A DNA stretch of 9,404 bases from Candidatus Fermentibacterales bacterium (GTDB lineage Bacteria; Fermentibacterota; Fermentibacteria; Fermentibacterales; JAFGKQ01). The translations under genes and the position numbers were made by a program. The DNA lies in contig JAFGKQ010000159.1 in assembly GCA_016928495.1 (NCBI GenBank), positions 1 to 9,404 on the forward strand, written 5' to 3'. The notes under the pieces were generated by a model. It worked only from the letters and a program-made list of their open reading frames with translations, did no database searches and was not told the origin of the DNA. This document shows, in pieces, positions 283 to 7,087 of this stretch (positions within the stretch are counted from its first letter, which is position 1; each line of letters starts with the position of its first letter).

Positions 283-1854
283 TCAGAGGTCAGAGGGGAC
301 TGGCCCGAGGCTCCTGGACCTGGCCAGGGCCCCCTCTCCGGCGACGCTATCTCCGACCTCGAACAGCGCCGAAGCCAGGTTGCTCCAGGCGGTAGGTGAG
401 CCGGGAGCGATGGCAAGGGCCATCCTGAACTGGCACACTGCCTCCTCCGGCCTTCCACCGATCGCGAGCGCAATGCCCCGGAGGTTATGGAGATCGGCGC
501 CGGCGAACCCGGATGAGCCCGCCATGTCGAGCTGGCGCATCGCTTCCGCCGGGTCGCTGCCGTAGTTGATCTCGTACTCCGCCCTGAGGATGTGGTTGAA
601 GCCGGGACGTGTCCCCGGCCATCCCAGGCGTGGAGCAGCGATCGATGCCAAAACGAGGATCCCCGCGATGGCTGCGGCAGGTCTGAGGATCTGCCGGAGC
701 TCTCGCGGATCACCTCGGGGACAGGTCATGGCTACCAGGAACCAGACCGCCGGAACCACTGCCACGCGATACCGGGCTGCCGGGAAGAACACCAGCGCCA
801 CCACGGCCTGTAGCAGCAGGAAGCAGAAGAGCCAGGATGCGCCTCGTCTGAGCGAGGAGGAGCGCAACAACGCAGCAAGCGCCAGCGAGAGAGCAGCGAG
901 AGGCAGCGGCAGCAGCACGAGCAGGCCCGAGGAGCGGAAGGCGCTCGGCACGTCCAGGTTCCTCCCCGGCCCCGGAAACGCGAAGCCCGACAACAGCTTC
1001 CGTGGAAGGAGACCGAGCAATCGAAGGGGCTGCGATCCTGCCGCCCGTACAGCTCTCTCCCAGAAGACAGCGTCGATGTCCCCGGCATTCCCCGAAGCGG
1101 CCCTGGGGTCCGTGACCACGACCAGCTCCTCGAACTCCAGGCCGGGCGGCACCGAGCCGAGCTCCTCGTCCGTTCCCAGCCAGGCGTTGAGGCCGCCGTT
1201 GGCCGCCGGGGTCGCCAGCGTGCCGCCGGACAGGTTCCAGACGGCTACGGGTACGAGAACCAGGGCCGCCCCGGCCATGCCTCCGAGCCAGCGTCGCCAC
1301 CTCCATTCCACCGATAGCCCGAGAAGGGGGAGCAGCAGAACGAGCTCCCCCCTGAAGAGGGTTGCCAGGCCGAGGAGCAGCCCGGATAGCAGGTCCCGTC
1401 CCCGGCGGGGGCCGCGCATCGAGAGCAGTATGGCGGCAGCGACGAGCGCTGCGGCCCAGGCCCCCGGCAATAGCTGGTAGCCGGCCAGCACGAGATAGGG
1501 ATCGAGGGCGCACATGACGGAGGCGATGACCGGAACCGCCCCGGGGGCGCACAGCGGCACGAGCAGCGCGGGAACCAGGGAAGCGAGGGAGCCTGCTATC
1601 CTTCCCCCGTCGTGCCTACCGGCGACGGCCTCGAAGCAGTCCATGAGAAGGTACATGGCCGGGGGTCTCGGAAAGCAGGGAGGGGCCGCGGCGGCCTGCA
1701 CGCCCCCGGCGTAGGCGCACTCGTCCACGTAGAGGCCGTCTGCCGGAAGCATGGAGGCGATCACGGGCAGGAAGACCAGCCTCGCGGCCAGTCCGGCACA
1801 CAGCGCCGGCAACAGCCTGCGCAGGCCGTGGCCGAGGTCCCACTTCCCGATCAG
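283..1854 (-). CDS. GT-C (ArnT/PMT-like, GT39 type) membrane glycosyltransferase with C-terminal TPR-like tail
   Basis: This is a predicted polytopic inner-membrane enzyme that would transfer a sugar from a polyprenyl-phosphate donor to an acceptor on the outer face. A basic N-terminus and TM1 (about residues 14-36) lead to a first outer loop with YVDECAY; D44/E45 fit the Asp-Glu pair of the family. PRPPAMYLL (63-70) matches the usual xPPLyyLL. Many hydrophobic segments follow: about 88-142, 154-180, 188-206, 308-330, 340-375 and 392-408. Residues 425-515 look like two or three TPR helix pairs (HNLRGIALAIGGRPEEAV...). No ATG, GTG or TTG lies near the upstream stop in this frame. The best start is CTG at 1852-1854: it overlaps the upstream TGA as CTGA and has GGAGAG 6 bases upstream, giving 523 residues. 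The TTG at 1810-1812 is the alternative (509 residues). Sugar and acceptor are unknown. Confidence 0.78.
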   Translation of the reverse strand: MIGKWDLGHGLRRLLPALCAGLAARLVFLPVIASMLPADGLYVDECAYAGGVQAAAAPPCFPRPPAMYLLMDCFEAVAGRHDGGRIAGSLASLVPALLVPLCAPGAVPVIASVMCALDPYLVLAGYQLLPGAWAAALVAAAILLSMRGPRRGRDLLSGLLLGLATLFRGELVLLLPLLGLSVEWRWRRWLGGMAGAALVLVPVAVWNLSGGTLATPAANGGLNAWLGTDEELGSVPPGLEFEELVVVTDPRAASGNAGDIDAVFWERAVRAAGSQPLRLLGLLPRKLLSGFAFPGPGRNLDVPSAFRSSGLLVLLPLPLAALSLALAALLRSSSLRRGASWLFCFLLLQAVVALVFFPAARYRVAVVPAVWFLVAMTCPRGDPRELRQILRPAAAIAGILVLASIAAPRLGWPGTRPGFNHILRAEYEINYGSDPAEAMRQLDMAGSSGFAGADLHNLRGIALAIGGRPEEAVCQFRMALAIAPGSPTAWSNLASALFEVGDSVAGEGALARSRSLGPVPSDL

Positions 1855-3494
1855 GGCTGGCTCTCCAGACGTATCAGAAGCCCTCCGGAGCGCCCAGGCA
1901 CGGTGTCCTCTATCACCCACGCCGGACCCTCCCGGACGGCGGCGCACCCCGAGCCCGTCTCGATCGCGAGCCGGCCCTGCCATTCGATCGTCCATCTACG
2001 CCTGAAGCTGCGTGGAACGCCCTCTCCGCTTCCCCAGTCGAGAGCCGGCAGCAGCAGCATGCCCTGCTCGCCCTCGGGCACGACCCCAACCCTGAAGACT
2101 GCCTCGAGCCAGGCCGGCTCGGCAAGGTCGAGCAGAGGGCTGCTGCCCAGGGTGTCGGGCATGCAGAGCCACCTGCTGCGCCAGAGCCATCGAACGAGCG
2201 CTCTCCCGATGTCGTCGGGAGCCGAGCTGCCTCCTGCGGTCAGGAGTCGCCGAAGGACCTCGCTGTAGTGACCCCTGGGCTGGACTCTCATCTCGATCCG
2301 CCCGGCGGTCGGATCGAGCTCGTATTCCTCGAGGCAGGCGTTCTCGGAAGGCGTGTTGGGCGCAAGGTAGGGCGGGCAGGCCCCGCCGGGCTCGAGCACC
2401 CACAGGCCCTCCGGCCGACGAAGGTAGCCGGCGGGCGAGGCCCAGGCGGCCGGCTCGAGGTAGAGCTCTCCGGAGGCGGTCTCGAGCCTCACCGCGAAAC
2501 GCGTCCACTGATCGGGAAGCGGTATCGAGGGCTCGCACTCGCTGCAGGCGATCAGCGCGGCGGGGAGCCCGAGATCGACCAGCATCTTCGAGAGCAGCGC
2601 GCACATCTCGAGCGAGGATGCGATCCTGGAGTCGAGTATCTCCTGTGCGCTCCTGCAACTGAAACTCCTGTGCAGAGGGGGAGATGCGATGAGCCTCAGG
2701 TTGTCCGTGAGCGCGAAGCTGGCCCTTCTCGCCAGATCCGCGCCGATCGCGGACCTCGCGGCTATCTCCAGCTCAGCCTCCCTCAGGTCCGGCGGGCTGG
2801 GGGACCCGGCCAGGCTGCATGCGCTCGCGAGAACCAGCCCGGACAGCTCCTCCCATGAAGCGATGGCTGACACGCGGAGACCCGAGTCTGGATGGCTCGC
2901 GTGGAGCACGAGATGCCCTTCCCCCGCCCGGGAGCCGGGCGCCTCGGTGTAATCCCCCGGCAGGTCCGTCTCGAAGGAGATCCGGCGCCCGCCGTCATCA
3001 TCCCTGATCTCCAGCTCCAGGCTCGAGATGCCCGGCAGCTCACCGGGCGAGAAGCGGAGCCACGGCCCGCATTCCCAGAGCCCGCTCCAGTCGAGCAACT
3101 CGACCTCGTACTCAACGGCCCAGCCGGTCGTCAGGCCGGGAAACACGAAAACCAGCTCCGCGCGACCGGAAGAGGCATCGTAGAGGGTGTCCACGGCCCA
3201 CTCCGGAATATCAGACCAGCACTCGACCTCCCCCCCGCCCCCGAGGGGGCCCATCCTCGCCAGGAGCAGGGAAAGCGACTGCACCTCCGGATCGTACCTG
3301 TCCCCGGCTCTGCGCAACAGCGCGGCCCCCAGGGGACCCTCCGCCCGAGCCAGGACCCTTGTCCTTACGCGCATCGTGTCAGCATCCAGGCGAGCGTCTA
3401 TCCTGTACTCCTCGATCAGAGCCCCGCCGGACGGATCGAGCTGTCCGGCGAGCGCGAGAGACGCCAGGATGCGGGAGACAAGGGCGCAGATCAC
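1851..3494 (-). CDS. DUF3857/transglutaminase-like exported protein with a degenerate catalytic triad
   Basis: This is a 547-residue protein with a short hydrophobic N-terminus (MICALVSRILASLALAGQ), probably a signal peptide or anchor. Residues about 25-200 resemble a DUF3857-type beta domain, and about 275-370 a transglutaminase-like core. Compared with the upstream neighbour, the core aligns as S294-L-E-M-C-A-L-L against C304-R-D-Q-A-V-L-L. The neighbour's H344 falls at R332, and its D361 (FLDPSA) at E347 (YLEPAA). All three catalytic positions are therefore substituted, and the protein is probably not a working thiol enzyme, although C298 lies four residues from the expected nucleophile. 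The GTG start at 3492-3494 overlaps the upstream stop as GTGA and places the hydrophobic segment at the N-terminus; the open frame extends further upstream, but only into sequence that is coding in another frame. A binding or scaffold role beside its active-looking paralogue is inference. Confidence 0.75.
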   Translation of the reverse strand: MICALVSRILASLALAGQLDPSGGALIEEYRIDARLDADTMRVRTRVLARAEGPLGAALLRRAGDRYDPEVQSLSLLLARMGPLGGGGEVECWSDIPEWAVDTLYDASSGRAELVFVFPGLTTGWAVEYEVELLDWSGLWECGPWLRFSPGELPGISSLELEIRDDDGGRRISFETDLPGDYTEAPGSRAGEGHLVLHASHPDSGLRVSAIASWEELSGLVLASACSLAGSPSPPDLREAELEIAARSAIGADLARRASFALTDNLRLIASPPLHRSFSCRSAQEILDSRIASSLEMCALLSKMLVDLGLPAALIACSECEPSIPLPDQWTRFAVRLETASGELYLEPAAWASPAGYLRRPEGLWVLEPGGACPPYLAPNTPSENACLEEYELDPTAGRIEMRVQPRGHYSEVLRRLLTAGGSSAPDDIGRALVRWLWRSRWLCMPDTLGSSPLLDLAEPAWLEAVFRVGVVPEGEQGMLLLPALDWGSGEGVPRSFRRRWTIEWQGRLAIETGSGCAAVREGPAWVIEDTVPGRSGGLLIRLESQP

Positions 3495-5362
3495 GGTCTC
3501 AGCACCACCACCCTGCCTGAGAGATCGCCGGACATCTCCCTGGAAGAGAACGCTGCGGCGCGGATGAGAGCCCATCTGGAGGGGGCGGGGCGCACCGGCG
3601 TGAGATCACAGGACTCCCTGAGGCGGATGGTGTCGCCATCGATCCGGGTCTCCGCCGAGTGCAGCCGATTCGCGTCGCCCTGTGAGCGGACAGCGGTCAT
3701 CAGGCGGGGTTGCAGGGAATCCGCGACAGCCAGGTCGATCTCCAGGACCTCGAGCATCGGGGTGTCGATCATCATCCCCTGTCTCGCCTCCTCTCCATCA
3801 CGCACCGGCAGGCCTGCCATGATCCTGTAGCAGAGCCTGGATCCCAGCAGGTCCAGGTCCGAGAGACCGGGCAGGAGCACGAACAGCGACGAGTCGGAGC
3901 CGGCAACGGCCCGGAGAGGCATGGTCCCGGCTCCGGAGACGCTCAGGACCCCCGGAGGGCTGGATGAGGCCACCGACAGCGAACAGGAGCCCCACGGCGC
4001 GAACAGGGTGAGCAGCAGCCCCTCTCCGGCGTCCGCACCACCCGCCAGCTCCGTCATCTCTCTCAGCAGGTCACCGGCGGCGCCGTGCAGCTCGATCACG
4101 CAGGAGTACCTCATCCTCGGCGGGTCGAGCGCCAGTACCCCGCAGAAGCGCATCCGCAGCGTATCCGTGGAGAGCGGATCGGCGATCCCGGCAATGGGGC
4201 TTCCGGGGTCCGTGGCCGGCAGGCAACTCGATCCCCTCAGGGCCCAGGGAATCCCGGAACGGGAAGAGGCAGCGGAGGGGTCCAGGAACTCCATCACACC
4301 CCCGGGGTCCTGCCTGAAGAACGCTATGGCGTGATCGAAGCTCCTGATGCCGGGAAGCTCCTCCAGCCTGTGAGAGGAGCTCATGAAGGCCAGCCCGGCC
4401 TCGAATCCCGCATGGTGCAACAGATGAGCCAGAAGGACCGCCTGGTCCCTGCACACGCCGCAGCCCTCCCTGATCGTCTCGAGCGGGGTCCGGGCGTCGA
4501 ACCCGGCCCACTGGCCGAACTCGCCCCCCAGGTAGGAGACTTCCCGGGCAACCCAGAGCCTGAGAGAGTCGGGGTCCGGTGGCACGGAATCGAGGATGGC
4601 GGCGACCTCGGGCGCAAGATCGGACTCCACGAGAGGCTGGAACCTCCTCGCGAGGCTCAGACTGAGCTGCTCTGGCGTGCAGCTCGAGACCAGGACCCTG
4701 TCGAGCGTCTCCCAGAGGGGGAGCCCGAGCTCGGCGCTGCCTCCCGCGGCGCTGCTCCCCCCCCACTGCCAGCTCCTTACGGTGCGGCTTCCCCCGTCCG
4801 TGGTCCAGGATCGGAAGGACGGCTCGGATCCCGCCGGGTCGTGGGATACGATGAGGGGCCTGCCGGTGGGCCATATCACGGTGAAGTCGGCAGAATCGAT
4901 GCTGTCGCGGCCCTGCGGGAAGAAGGCGTAGGAGTAGGCGTCGGCTATCGGAAGCGAGGATACCCTCCTCTCCAGCTCTACGATCACCGTGTCGCCGATC
5001 TCGATGCCCTGGAAGACCAGAGAGACCTCCCTGAGGGAGCTCTCCAGCCTCGAAGCGGCCGAGAGGGAACGGTGCGCGGACCTGGTCTCCAGTGCATCCA
5101 TCTCCCTGCGGCCGGCCCTGCAAGGGTGGCTCTCGGCCCTGAGGACGGTGACCTCCTCCCAATCGTCGTGGTACCCTACCACCATCTCTCCGAAGCGGAT
5201 GACGCCCCTTCCGGTGAGCAGCAGTATCTCCTCGAGGGCCCTCTCGACGTACGCGCCGTCGCCCTGGGTGGCATCAACGGTGGCGCTGTGCCTGAGGAAG
5301 ACCGCGTCCTGACCGGATGCCACGGCAAGCCCGGAGAGCACGATCGTCAGGACGGCTCTCAC
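3491..5362 (-). CDS. Exported DUF3857 and transglutaminase-core protein with intact Cys-His-Asp triad
   Basis: This is a 623-residue protein beginning with a signal peptide (MRAVLTIVLSGLAVASGQ; cleavage likely after ASG or SGQ, about residues 17-18), so it probably acts in the periplasm or at the cell surface. Residues about 25-220 fit DUF3857, including the typical GDTVIVELE turn at 123-131. Residues about 260-365 form a papain-like transglutaminase core, with C304 in GVCRDQA, H344 in FDHAIAFF and D361 in FLDPSA. The C-terminal 240 residues look beta-rich. Family members are thought to act as transglutaminases, peptidases or amidases on envelope proteins or peptidoglycan; the substrate here is unknown. 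The GTG start at 5360-5362 overlaps the surE stop as GTGA and has AAAGGCGG about 7 bases upstream. A longer open frame to 5467 exists but would put 35 charged residues ahead of the signal peptide. Confidence 0.85.
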   Translation of the reverse strand: MRAVLTIVLSGLAVASGQDAVFLRHSATVDATQGDGAYVERALEEILLLTGRGVIRFGEMVVGYHDDWEEVTVLRAESHPCRAGRREMDALETRSAHRSLSAASRLESSLREVSLVFQGIEIGDTVIVELERRVSSLPIADAYSYAFFPQGRDSIDSADFTVIWPTGRPLIVSHDPAGSEPSFRSWTTDGGSRTVRSWQWGGSSAAGGSAELGLPLWETLDRVLVSSCTPEQLSLSLARRFQPLVESDLAPEVAAILDSVPPDPDSLRLWVAREVSYLGGEFGQWAGFDARTPLETIREGCGVCRDQAVLLAHLLHHAGFEAGLAFMSSSHRLEELPGIRSFDHAIAFFRQDPGGVMEFLDPSAASSRSGIPWALRGSSCLPATDPGSPIAGIADPLSTDTLRMRFCGVLALDPPRMRYSCVIELHGAAGDLLREMTELAGGADAGEGLLLTLFAPWGSCSLSVASSSPPGVLSVSGAGTMPLRAVAGSDSSLFVLLPGLSDLDLLGSRLCYRIMAGLPVRDGEEARQGMMIDTPMLEVLEIDLAVADSLQPRLMTAVRSQGDANRLHSAETRIDGDTIRLRESCDLTPVRPAPSRWALIRAAAFSSREMSGDLSGRVVVLRP

Positions 5363-6141
5363 TCCCGGACCGCCTTTCGCGGGATTCTGTGGGTGCGGTC
5401 CCTGTCGAGAAGGGAGACGCTTATCAGACCGGAGTAGTAGGCTCCGAGGTCGGTGCCCCTCCAGCAATCGCCGGGATGCTCCCGGCGTGCGGCTTCCGTG
5501 CGGTACCTCAGGCGCCGCACCCGGGGAGCAGCCTCCTCCGGCCCTCGAGGGCCCTCGTCGCCCTCGGTATCGAACGGAAGGTCACCGGCAAAGCTCCCCA
5601 GTCTCGTCCAGACGGCAGCGCGTGGGCGTCCCCTGGACAGATCGGGGATGTTCACGTTGAGGAAGCTGCCGCCGGGTATCCTCGACAACAGGCCAGCGTC
5701 GAAGAGCTCCCTGAAGAGGGCGGCCGCCTTGTCCAGGTGCCCTTCGAGCCGAGAGGAGCGCATGGAGAGGCTCACCGCTATCGCCGGGATCCCCCAGGAG
5801 GCGGACTCGGCCGCCCCCGCGACGGTTCCGGAGTACTCGACGTTGTTGGCCAGGTTGGCGCCCGGGTTGATCCCGGAGAGCACCAGGTCCGGAGGCCCTG
5901 ACTCCGCGTAGGCGACGAGCAGGGCCAGCTTGACGCAGTCCACCGGGGTCCCGGAAACGGAATAGCGGCTCTCGTCGAGCTTCTCGAGGGTGATCCAGGA
6001 CCGCAGAGTCAGGGATTGGCTGCAACCGCTCATGTGGGTCGAGGGCGCGACCACGATCAGCTCGTGATCACGGAAAGCACTCTCCAGGGAGGCGATGCCC
6101 GGCTCGCCAATGCCGTCATCGTTCGTCAGGAGTATCCGCAT
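5359..6141 (-). CDS. surE: 5'/3'-nucleotidase SurE
   Basis: This encodes a metal-dependent nucleotidase of 260 residues, the usual length for SurE, which dephosphorylates nucleoside monophosphates in the cytoplasm. The sequence opens with MRILLTNDDGIGEPG, where D8 and D9 are metal ligands. VAPSTHMSGCSQSLT follows with the ligand S38. Then come SGTPVDCVKLAL, and SGINPGANLANNVEYSGTVAGA with the ligand N92. The C-terminal GTDLGAYYSGLISVSLL is the usual closing strand. The ATG at 6139-6141 is chosen because every conserved residue follows it, with AGGG 8 bases upstream; the open frame further upstream runs back through the end of the preceding gene. It lies 25 bases after the outer-membrane protein gene and overlaps the next gene by 4 bases. 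In Proteobacteria surE usually sits near pcm and rpoS; here it heads an envelope-protein cluster instead. Confidence 0.97.
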   Translation of the reverse strand: MRILLTNDDGIGEPGIASLESAFRDHELIVVAPSTHMSGCSQSLTLRSWITLEKLDESRYSVSGTPVDCVKLALLVAYAESGPPDLVLSGINPGANLANNVEYSGTVAGAAESASWGIPAIAVSLSMRSSRLEGHLDKAAALFRELFDAGLLSRIPGGSFLNVNIPDLSRGRPRAAVWTRLGSFAGDLPFDTEGDEGPRGPEEAAPRVRRLRYRTEAARREHPGDCWRGTDLGAYYSGLISVSLLDRDRTHRIPRKAVRE

Positions 6142-6166: not shown

Positions 6167-7087
6167 TCAGATGCTTCGAGCCAGAGAGAACCTGTGGGTG
6201 GTTCCCAGACTGCTGGCGTAGGGCGCCATCGCGTAGTCCAGCGTCCAGCCCCCCGCGCGCAGGCCGAGTCCGGCGGAGAAGGACTCGGAGTCATGAAGAG
6301 GACGATAGCCACCCCTCAGGGCCAGCCATCCGGCAGGCAGGTACTCGATCCCGAGACCGAGGTCCGGCCTGGAGTCGATCGACTTCGAGACTCTCGCGAT
6401 AAGCATGGCCTCTCCTGGCAGCCCGGGCAGGTCGCCGGTCGCGGCGCCGGCGAGGCTCCAGCTCATGGGCATCCGGTGAGGCTCATCTGCAAGGGTGAAC
6501 GAAGGGCCTACGTGAAGCACGGCCCCGGCGAGCTGGATGAAAGGCCAGGGCTCGTAGCGGAACCCGGCATCGAAGCAGAACCCCCAGGAATCCTCTCTCC
6601 AGATCTTCTCTCTCAACAGCTTGGCGCCGAGACCCACGTCGAAGGCTCCGAGACGCGCAGCGGCCGCGGCCTGGAACGCCATGTCGTAGGCGCTGAAAGT
6701 GGAGAGCGGCTCCGAGGTCGCGGACTCCCTCATCTCGATGTCGCTCACGTGAAGGAAGCGGACCCCGAGCGAAGAGAAGAAGGGTCCGGTGGGACCGACC
6801 CAGCAGACGCACTCCTCCCGGGCCGAGCCCAGCCATTCGTTGTGCGTGGCCGAGATCCGGGCGCTCTGGCCCCCGACCAGGGCAGGATTGGCGAAAAGCC
6901 CCATGGAGCCGGCGGCGAGAAGCCCGGTGCTCCCGAGGGCAGCAGCCCTGGCCGACGTCTCCGTCTTGAGGAAGGCGAAGGCTGAGGAGCCCGCGTCCCT
7001 GTAGGGATCGGCGGCGGCGACCCGGGCCACAGACGCGAGGAGAACGAAGGCGGGCAGCAGGAAACGGCCGATCGGGAGCTTTCTCAA
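6167..7087 (-). CDS. PorV/PorQ-like outer-membrane beta-barrel protein
   Basis: This is a 306-residue protein with a clear signal peptide (basic MRKLPIGR, hydrophobic FLLPAFVLLASVA, cleavage probably after VAAA at residue 26). The mature N-terminus carries the pattern shared by PorV/PorQ-type barrels: AFLKTETSARAAALGSTG, then a segment ending in LFANPA (64-69), matching the family's 'SARAxALGxA...ALFxNPA'. Alternating polar and hydrophobic strands rich in Gly and aromatic residues fill the rest, and the chain ends in a short strand (THRFSLARSI). PorV-type proteins serve as outer-membrane partners in type IX secretion and surface attachment in Bacteroidota, but homologues occur widely without that system, so no secretion role should be assumed. 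The start is the TTG at 7085-7087 with GAAGGA at 7098-7103, 10 bases upstream. It is the first gene of the minus-strand block and has its own candidate promoter. Confidence 0.75.
   Translation of the reverse strand: MRKLPIGRFLLPAFVLLASVARVAAADPYRDAGSSAFAFLKTETSARAAALGSTGLLAAGSMGLFANPALVGGQSARISATHNEWLGSAREECVCWVGPTGPFFSSLGVRFLHVSDIEMRESATSEPLSTFSAYDMAFQAAAAARLGAFDVGLGAKLLREKIWREDSWGFCFDAGFRYEPWPFIQLAGAVLHVGPSFTLADEPHRMPMSWSLAGAATGDLPGLPGEAMLIARVSKSIDSRPDLGLGIEYLPAGWLALRGGYRPLHDSESFSAGLGLRAGGWTLDYAMAPYASSLGTTHRFSLARSI

Follow-up and report, generated by a model that had tools for sequence, protein, structure and literature searches.

Two adjoining genes of a Fermentibacterales bacterium encode exported proteins of one transglutaminase-like family, the first (A) with an intact Cys-His-Asp triad and the second (B) with all three catalytic positions replaced. 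We propose, with a probability of roughly 0.6, that the two proteins together make up an ancient, exported module of two transglutaminase-fold subunits, with A as the catalytic subunit and B as its obligate partner. Rather than a gene in decay, B is very probably a functioning partner, and the pairing of an active with a dead copy extends well beyond the phylum in which it was first noticed.

Results

Gene order and coordinates of the locus

The window, 9,404 nucleotides long, is one entire contig of a metagenome genome of 2.3 Mb and 81% completeness. Its minus strand carries, in order, genes for a PorV/PorQ-family protein, SurE, A, B and a membrane protein with TPR (Table 1), and the divergent genes upstream of the locus are a lipoate ligase-type gene, lipA and dus. 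The first-pass annotation had reported a 4-base overlap of the two genes, and this is the GTGA in which A ends and B begins; read in the same way, the surE-A junction is also a GTGA overlap of 4 bases. Both A and B begin with a hydrophobic segment that looks like a signal peptide and has no lipobox cysteine, as judged from the sequence. PorV and PorQ are type IX secretion proteins in Bacteroidota, and the neighbour of this family in Fermentibacterota, whose copy in the window scores 94.6 bits with NCBIfam NF033709 (cut-off 90), may therefore connect A and B to an export route. The open frame of the membrane protein overlaps B, and its true start is unsure. Its N-terminal motif and hydrophobicity suggest a putative GT-C glycosyltransferase; the glycosyltransferase models of Pfam and NCBIfam gave no match.

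Table 1. Positions of the genes and catalytic sites in the window, with natural single-chain counterparts in other genomes (locus:range)
Feature	Position	Strand	Basis
Gene A: exported DUF3857-transglutaminase-like protein, intact Cys-His-Asp, 623 aa, GTG start at 5362	3491..5362	-	Pfam, homologue alignment, AlphaFold
Gene B: exported DUF3857-transglutaminase fold without triad, 547 aa, GTG start at 3494	1851..3494	-	hhalign, AlphaFold, dN/dS
GTGA, 4 bases, common to A stop and B start	3491..3494	-	read directly
SurE gene, immediately upstream of A, conserved neighbour	5359..6141	-	Pfam SurE 1.6e-50, synteny
PorV/PorQ-family outer-membrane protein gene, upstream of surE, conserved neighbour	6167..7087	-	NCBIfam NF033709, synteny
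Integral-membrane protein, C-terminal TPR, downstream, conserved neighbour	283..1995	-	TPR matches, synteny in nearly all loci
A C304, catalytic Cys, GVCRD motif, N-terminus of central helix	4451..4453	-	alignment, AlphaFold
A H344, catalytic His, FDH motif	4331..4333	-	alignment, AlphaFold
A D361, catalytic Asp, LDP motif	4280..4282	-	alignment, AlphaFold
B S294 at Cys position	2613..2615	-	alignment, profile comparison
B R332 at His position	2499..2501	-	alignment, profile comparison
B E347 at Asp position	2454..2456	-	alignment, profile comparison
Natural intact + degenerate fusion	L198:2903-6823		one chain
Natural intact + degenerate fusion	L199:2642-6502		one chain
Natural intact + degenerate fusion	L200:2143-6189		one chain

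B has the transglutaminase fold and lacks the catalytic site

Gene A matches Pfam DUF3857 (PF12969) at 5e-11 and 43.4 bits, over the gathering score of 24.6, and Transglut_core at 0.002 and 18.8 bits, under the cut-off of 23; with a DUF3857 domain and a Cys-His-Asp core it is a DUF3857 transglutaminase-like protein. B of the window has no Pfam match of its own, the DUF3857 sequence model included, and that model matches 6 of 35 B homologues weakly. The membership of B in the family lies in the fold of its whole chain, through its match to the solved structure 3KD4 and its profile homology to A. The AlphaFold models (pLDDT 85 for A, 89 for B) match 3KD4 over most of their length, with Z 25.7 over 490 residues for A and with Z 22.4 and rmsd 4.0 over 426 of 547 residues for B, so that the whole fold of the 3KD4/DUF3857-transglutaminase family (PF12969) is common to all three. 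The core of A also matches LapG, TglA and 3ISR (Z 9 to 10), and that of B matches 3ISR, TglA and TG2. The DUF3857 part of both proteins resembles the N-domains of M1 aminopeptidases and ribophorin I/Ost1 (Z 9 to 11), a likeness that we take as a common beta-rich arrangement and not as a functional link to either.

Profile-profile comparison of A and B (hhalign; 33 A and 35 B homologues) gave a probability of 98.5% and an E value of 2.4e-15 over 408 columns, and placed C304 on S294, H344 on R332 and D361 on E347. These are the residues that had been matched by motif in the first-pass annotation, with correct coordinates, and the two AlphaFold models uphold the matching at the level of secondary-structure positions: the first residue of each triple begins the central helix (304-317 in A, 294-307 in B), the second begins a strand (344-350 and 332-339) and the third comes after the next strand (358-360 and 342-346). 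On the profile alignment, the positions in the models and the matches to 3KD4 and other transglutaminase folds, B therefore has the fold but lacks the site.

The triad of A is invariant in all 33 aligned homologues. At the corresponding positions of the 35 B homologues, the cysteine is replaced by Pro, Ser, Ala or Arg and is never present, the histidine is always Arg, and the aspartate is Glu except in two homologues (L061 and L062), which have Asp. The suggestion that Ser, Arg and Glu might be fixed thus holds for R332, which is invariant, and nearly so for E347, and fails for the variable S294. Two residues beside the lost cysteine, R290 and E296, are invariant too. It had also been considered that C298 or another cysteine of B might serve a working site, or that some homologue might retain the triad; C298 is not conserved, its column being nearly always Ala, and no active papain- or transglutaminase-type Cys-His-Asp, or shifted equivalent, is present among the 35.

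Conservation in Fermentibacterota

We searched 41 other genomes of the same order (Candidatus Fermentibacteria) for both genes, and detected A in 38 and B in 36, the relatives of B lying in Aegiribacteria, Sabulitectum and Fermentibacteraceae. Two near-complete genomes of the order (G001 and G018) carry neither gene, and the remaining misses are cut-short contigs or partial genomes. On every Fermentibacterota contig that carries both, A and B adjoin with A first; the active/inactive pairing, whose conservation had been proposed as a check, is conserved in the order. The overlap of the A stop with the B start measures 4 bases on 21 of the 31 related contigs compared, and a single base on five. 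The median dN/dS among close pairs is 0.156 for A and 0.178 for B; B is under purifying selection similar to that on A. The order PorV-like gene, surE, A, B, membrane/TPR protein, murJ and uvrC is kept across much of the phylum, and one genus (the L075-L079 type) has different genes after the membrane/TPR protein. In Ca. Sabulitectum silens (G041, L094:6272-9200), gene A runs over two frames and B is shortened, which reflects either an assembly frameshift or broken genes.

Intact and degenerate copies are paired in other phyla

Outside the phylum, a search with the B profile found only weak relatives, many of them in tandem DUF3857-transglutaminase genes. We surveyed the stretches around DUF3857 matches in a sample of 290 genomes, reading the catalytic columns with a common profile. 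This yielded 29 adjacent or fused pairs in 21 genomes of 19 families, all outside the phylum of the window; some of the loci were chosen by similarity to B, and two of the 29 are near-copies of each other. Every one of the 29 consists of one intact and one degenerate copy, with no pair of two intact copies. By independent draw at the observed share of degenerate copies, we estimate the chance of 28 consecutive mixed pairs at about 1e-9, a figure that ignores common descent. The pairing of active and dead copies is thus wider than the first-pass annotation supposed. Intact members read C-H-D, and once C-H-E, while the degenerate members read S-R-D, T-R-D, P-G-D, A-S-N and others, although for the most degenerate copies the alignment is uncertain apart from the missing cysteine; in one pair (L187) the second copy has no alignable core. 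In three of the 29, both halves lie in a single open frame, 1286-1348 aa long (Table 1). Seven degenerate copies have no intact neighbour; of these, two sit at the end of a contig, and the genomes of four contain an intact copy at another place. The neighbours of the pairs in these phyla include GcvP, PPDK, a TonB receptor, EarP, a C25 peptidase, an O-antigen ligase and UvrC, as well as a chaperonin and others, in which we found no common theme; since the neighbouring genes vary between phyla, they suggest no common substrate.

The solved structure of the family may belong to this pattern. 3KD4 is BDI_1141 of Parabacteroides distasonis, titled a putative protease. Alignment of the A profile to it, weak by sequence (E 0.015) and in agreement with the folds, sets GVCRD against GTPLE, and 3KD4 is therefore Cys-less like B, with Pro at the cysteine position, which is the catalytic position that the comparison covers. 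Among 385 genomes, the best relative of the 3KD4 fragment, L165_22, is the degenerate member of two tandem copies. In the literature searched we found no account of a division of the family into intact and degenerate halves.

The two halves share a history

In an 88-row tree, the intact and degenerate labels need 4 changes, against 29.6 in shuffles. The distance matrices of the partners correlate with r 0.80, or 0.71 without one of the two near-identical loci, compared with at most 0.53 (full set) and 0.33 (near-identical locus dropped) for random assignments of partners; under swaps of partners within genomes, the true assignment ranks first of 384. Because partner distances correlate and the true assignment is the best of these swaps, the two halves have travelled together. 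Within Fermentibacterota, A and B come out as sisters in the 88-row tree (support 86) but not in a 30-row tree, and an AU test does not reject a topology with all active pair members in one clade (p 0.22). The pairs may go back either to one ancient founding duplication or to several.

Discussion

A and B stay next to each other, are equally constrained, diverge in parallel and have fused counterparts, which argues that they form one working unit. Most simply, this would be a complex with a catalytic A and a binding or regulating B. In such a complex, Cys304-His344-Asp361 of A would attack a carboxamide or peptide bond of a cell-envelope protein, peptide or glycopeptide to form a thioester, to be resolved either by water, as in a protease or amidase, or by an amine, giving a cross-link. 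B retains the whole DUF3857, transglutaminase and C-terminal architecture, but its pocket has lost the cysteine, and in place of the His-Asp relay it has an Arg and an acid, which could form a pair; with these losses it would be unable to do the chemistry of A. As obligate partner it may instead bind substrate, or position or switch A. The physical heterodimer, the reaction catalysed by A and a role of B in binding substrate or in regulation are inferences from the comparisons above. The idea with which the analysis began, of a pseudoenzyme that has retained its fold and is kept as a partner of the active copy, has gained support from the lack of an alternative site or a kept triad among the B proteins of the order, the conserved adjacency, the recurrence in other phyla and the fusions.

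Mirrored distances and synteny are also expected from one pathway without contact between A and B. B could then be an independent peptide- or glycan-binding protein of the same envelope pathway, co-translated with A for dosage, and the conserved operon with envelope genes (PorV-family, membrane/TPR protein, MurJ) would suit this, as would the published suggestion that, in polymorphic toxins, transglutaminase domains without activity serve as anchors by binding peptides (PMC3482391). We consider this unlikely, as it is the pair, and not its neighbours, that stays constant from phylum to phylum, and both halves can be fused in one chain; natural one-chain fusions lend indirect support to a heteromeric complex of enzyme and pseudoenzyme. 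A more improbable role for B is that of an inhibitor or proenzyme-like keeper of A that is released by a signal. Coupling at equal dosage and a retained dead pocket would fit a competitive pseudo-subunit, and other protein families include regulatory pairs with a pseudoenzyme (PMC10211241), but neither the one-chain fusions nor the lone degenerate copies in a few genomes speak specifically for inhibition.

That B is an enzyme of a different, non-Cys kind, using the Arg-Glu pair together with the neighbouring R290 and E296, is suggested by the conservation of all four residues among the B homologues. In other phyla, degenerate partners have widely differing residues at these places, and we know of no transglutaminase-fold enzyme that uses an Arg-Glu-type set, which makes this reading very doubtful. 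Least credible is a decaying duplicate without function. B has lost the triad and is less similar than A to the Pfam models, yet its frame is intact, its fold is retained, its dN/dS is about 0.18 and it is present wherever A sits on an adequate contig in the order; selection and conservation contradict a pseudogene.

For the family as a whole, we put at about even odds the wider proposal that the DUF3857-transglutaminases of many phyla are an undescribed exported class of two-subunit enzymes, active and dead, of which 3KD4 is a dead subunit. The first-pass annotation knew of no described system built on such a pair, and the literature that we searched, mostly papers open without subscription, likewise yielded no description of a live and dead transglutaminase pairing in bacteria; it names DUF3857 solely for a gene adjoining lolA (PMC6341742). 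RloB has a periplasmic inactive transglutaminase domain with a function (PMC12239564, PMC12096838), but it is a membrane protein of the 7TM type, encoded alongside an aspartic peptidase and an ATP-grasp protein in one operon, and has no active homologue as partner, whereas B has no transmembrane bundle beyond its signal peptide, a mixed alpha/beta model and no Pfam 7TM match. In polymorphic toxins an exported transglutaminase domain has lost C, H or D, but there it is an N-terminal domain before RHS repeats and a toxin domain (PMC3482391), unlike the stand-alone B beside an active copy. Transglut_core2/SirB1 (PF13369) gives weak matches in 17 of the 35 B homologues (best 1.7e-6), around the lost cysteine, but B of the window has no match and carries the DUF3857 N-terminal fold. 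Where a score was seen it lay under the gathering score (21.5 bits against 23.5 in the homologue from L063), and we rejected an assignment of B to this family. Analogous in function only, with folds unrelated to A and B, are FAM20C-FAM20A, JAK JH1-JH2 and PRMT1 ENZ-PRO, in which a catalytic member and a dead homologue cooperate, sometimes in one chain (PMC10211241).

Members of the family are annotated as putative proteases or transglutaminases and read gene by gene, when the natural unit is often a pair. If A and B act together, assays of single proteins would fail or mislead, and 3KD4 would be the wrong half for studies of catalysis. The family also offers a repeated natural experiment in keeping a dead enzyme copy beside a live one, in which the degenerate sites differ by lineage and the pairing is constant. 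A longer type of DUF3857-transglutaminase, of about 1220-1660 aa including an N-terminal stretch of 650 or more residues, occurs at five loci (L203, L209, L210, L216 and L217), which also show neighbouring intact and degenerate copies.
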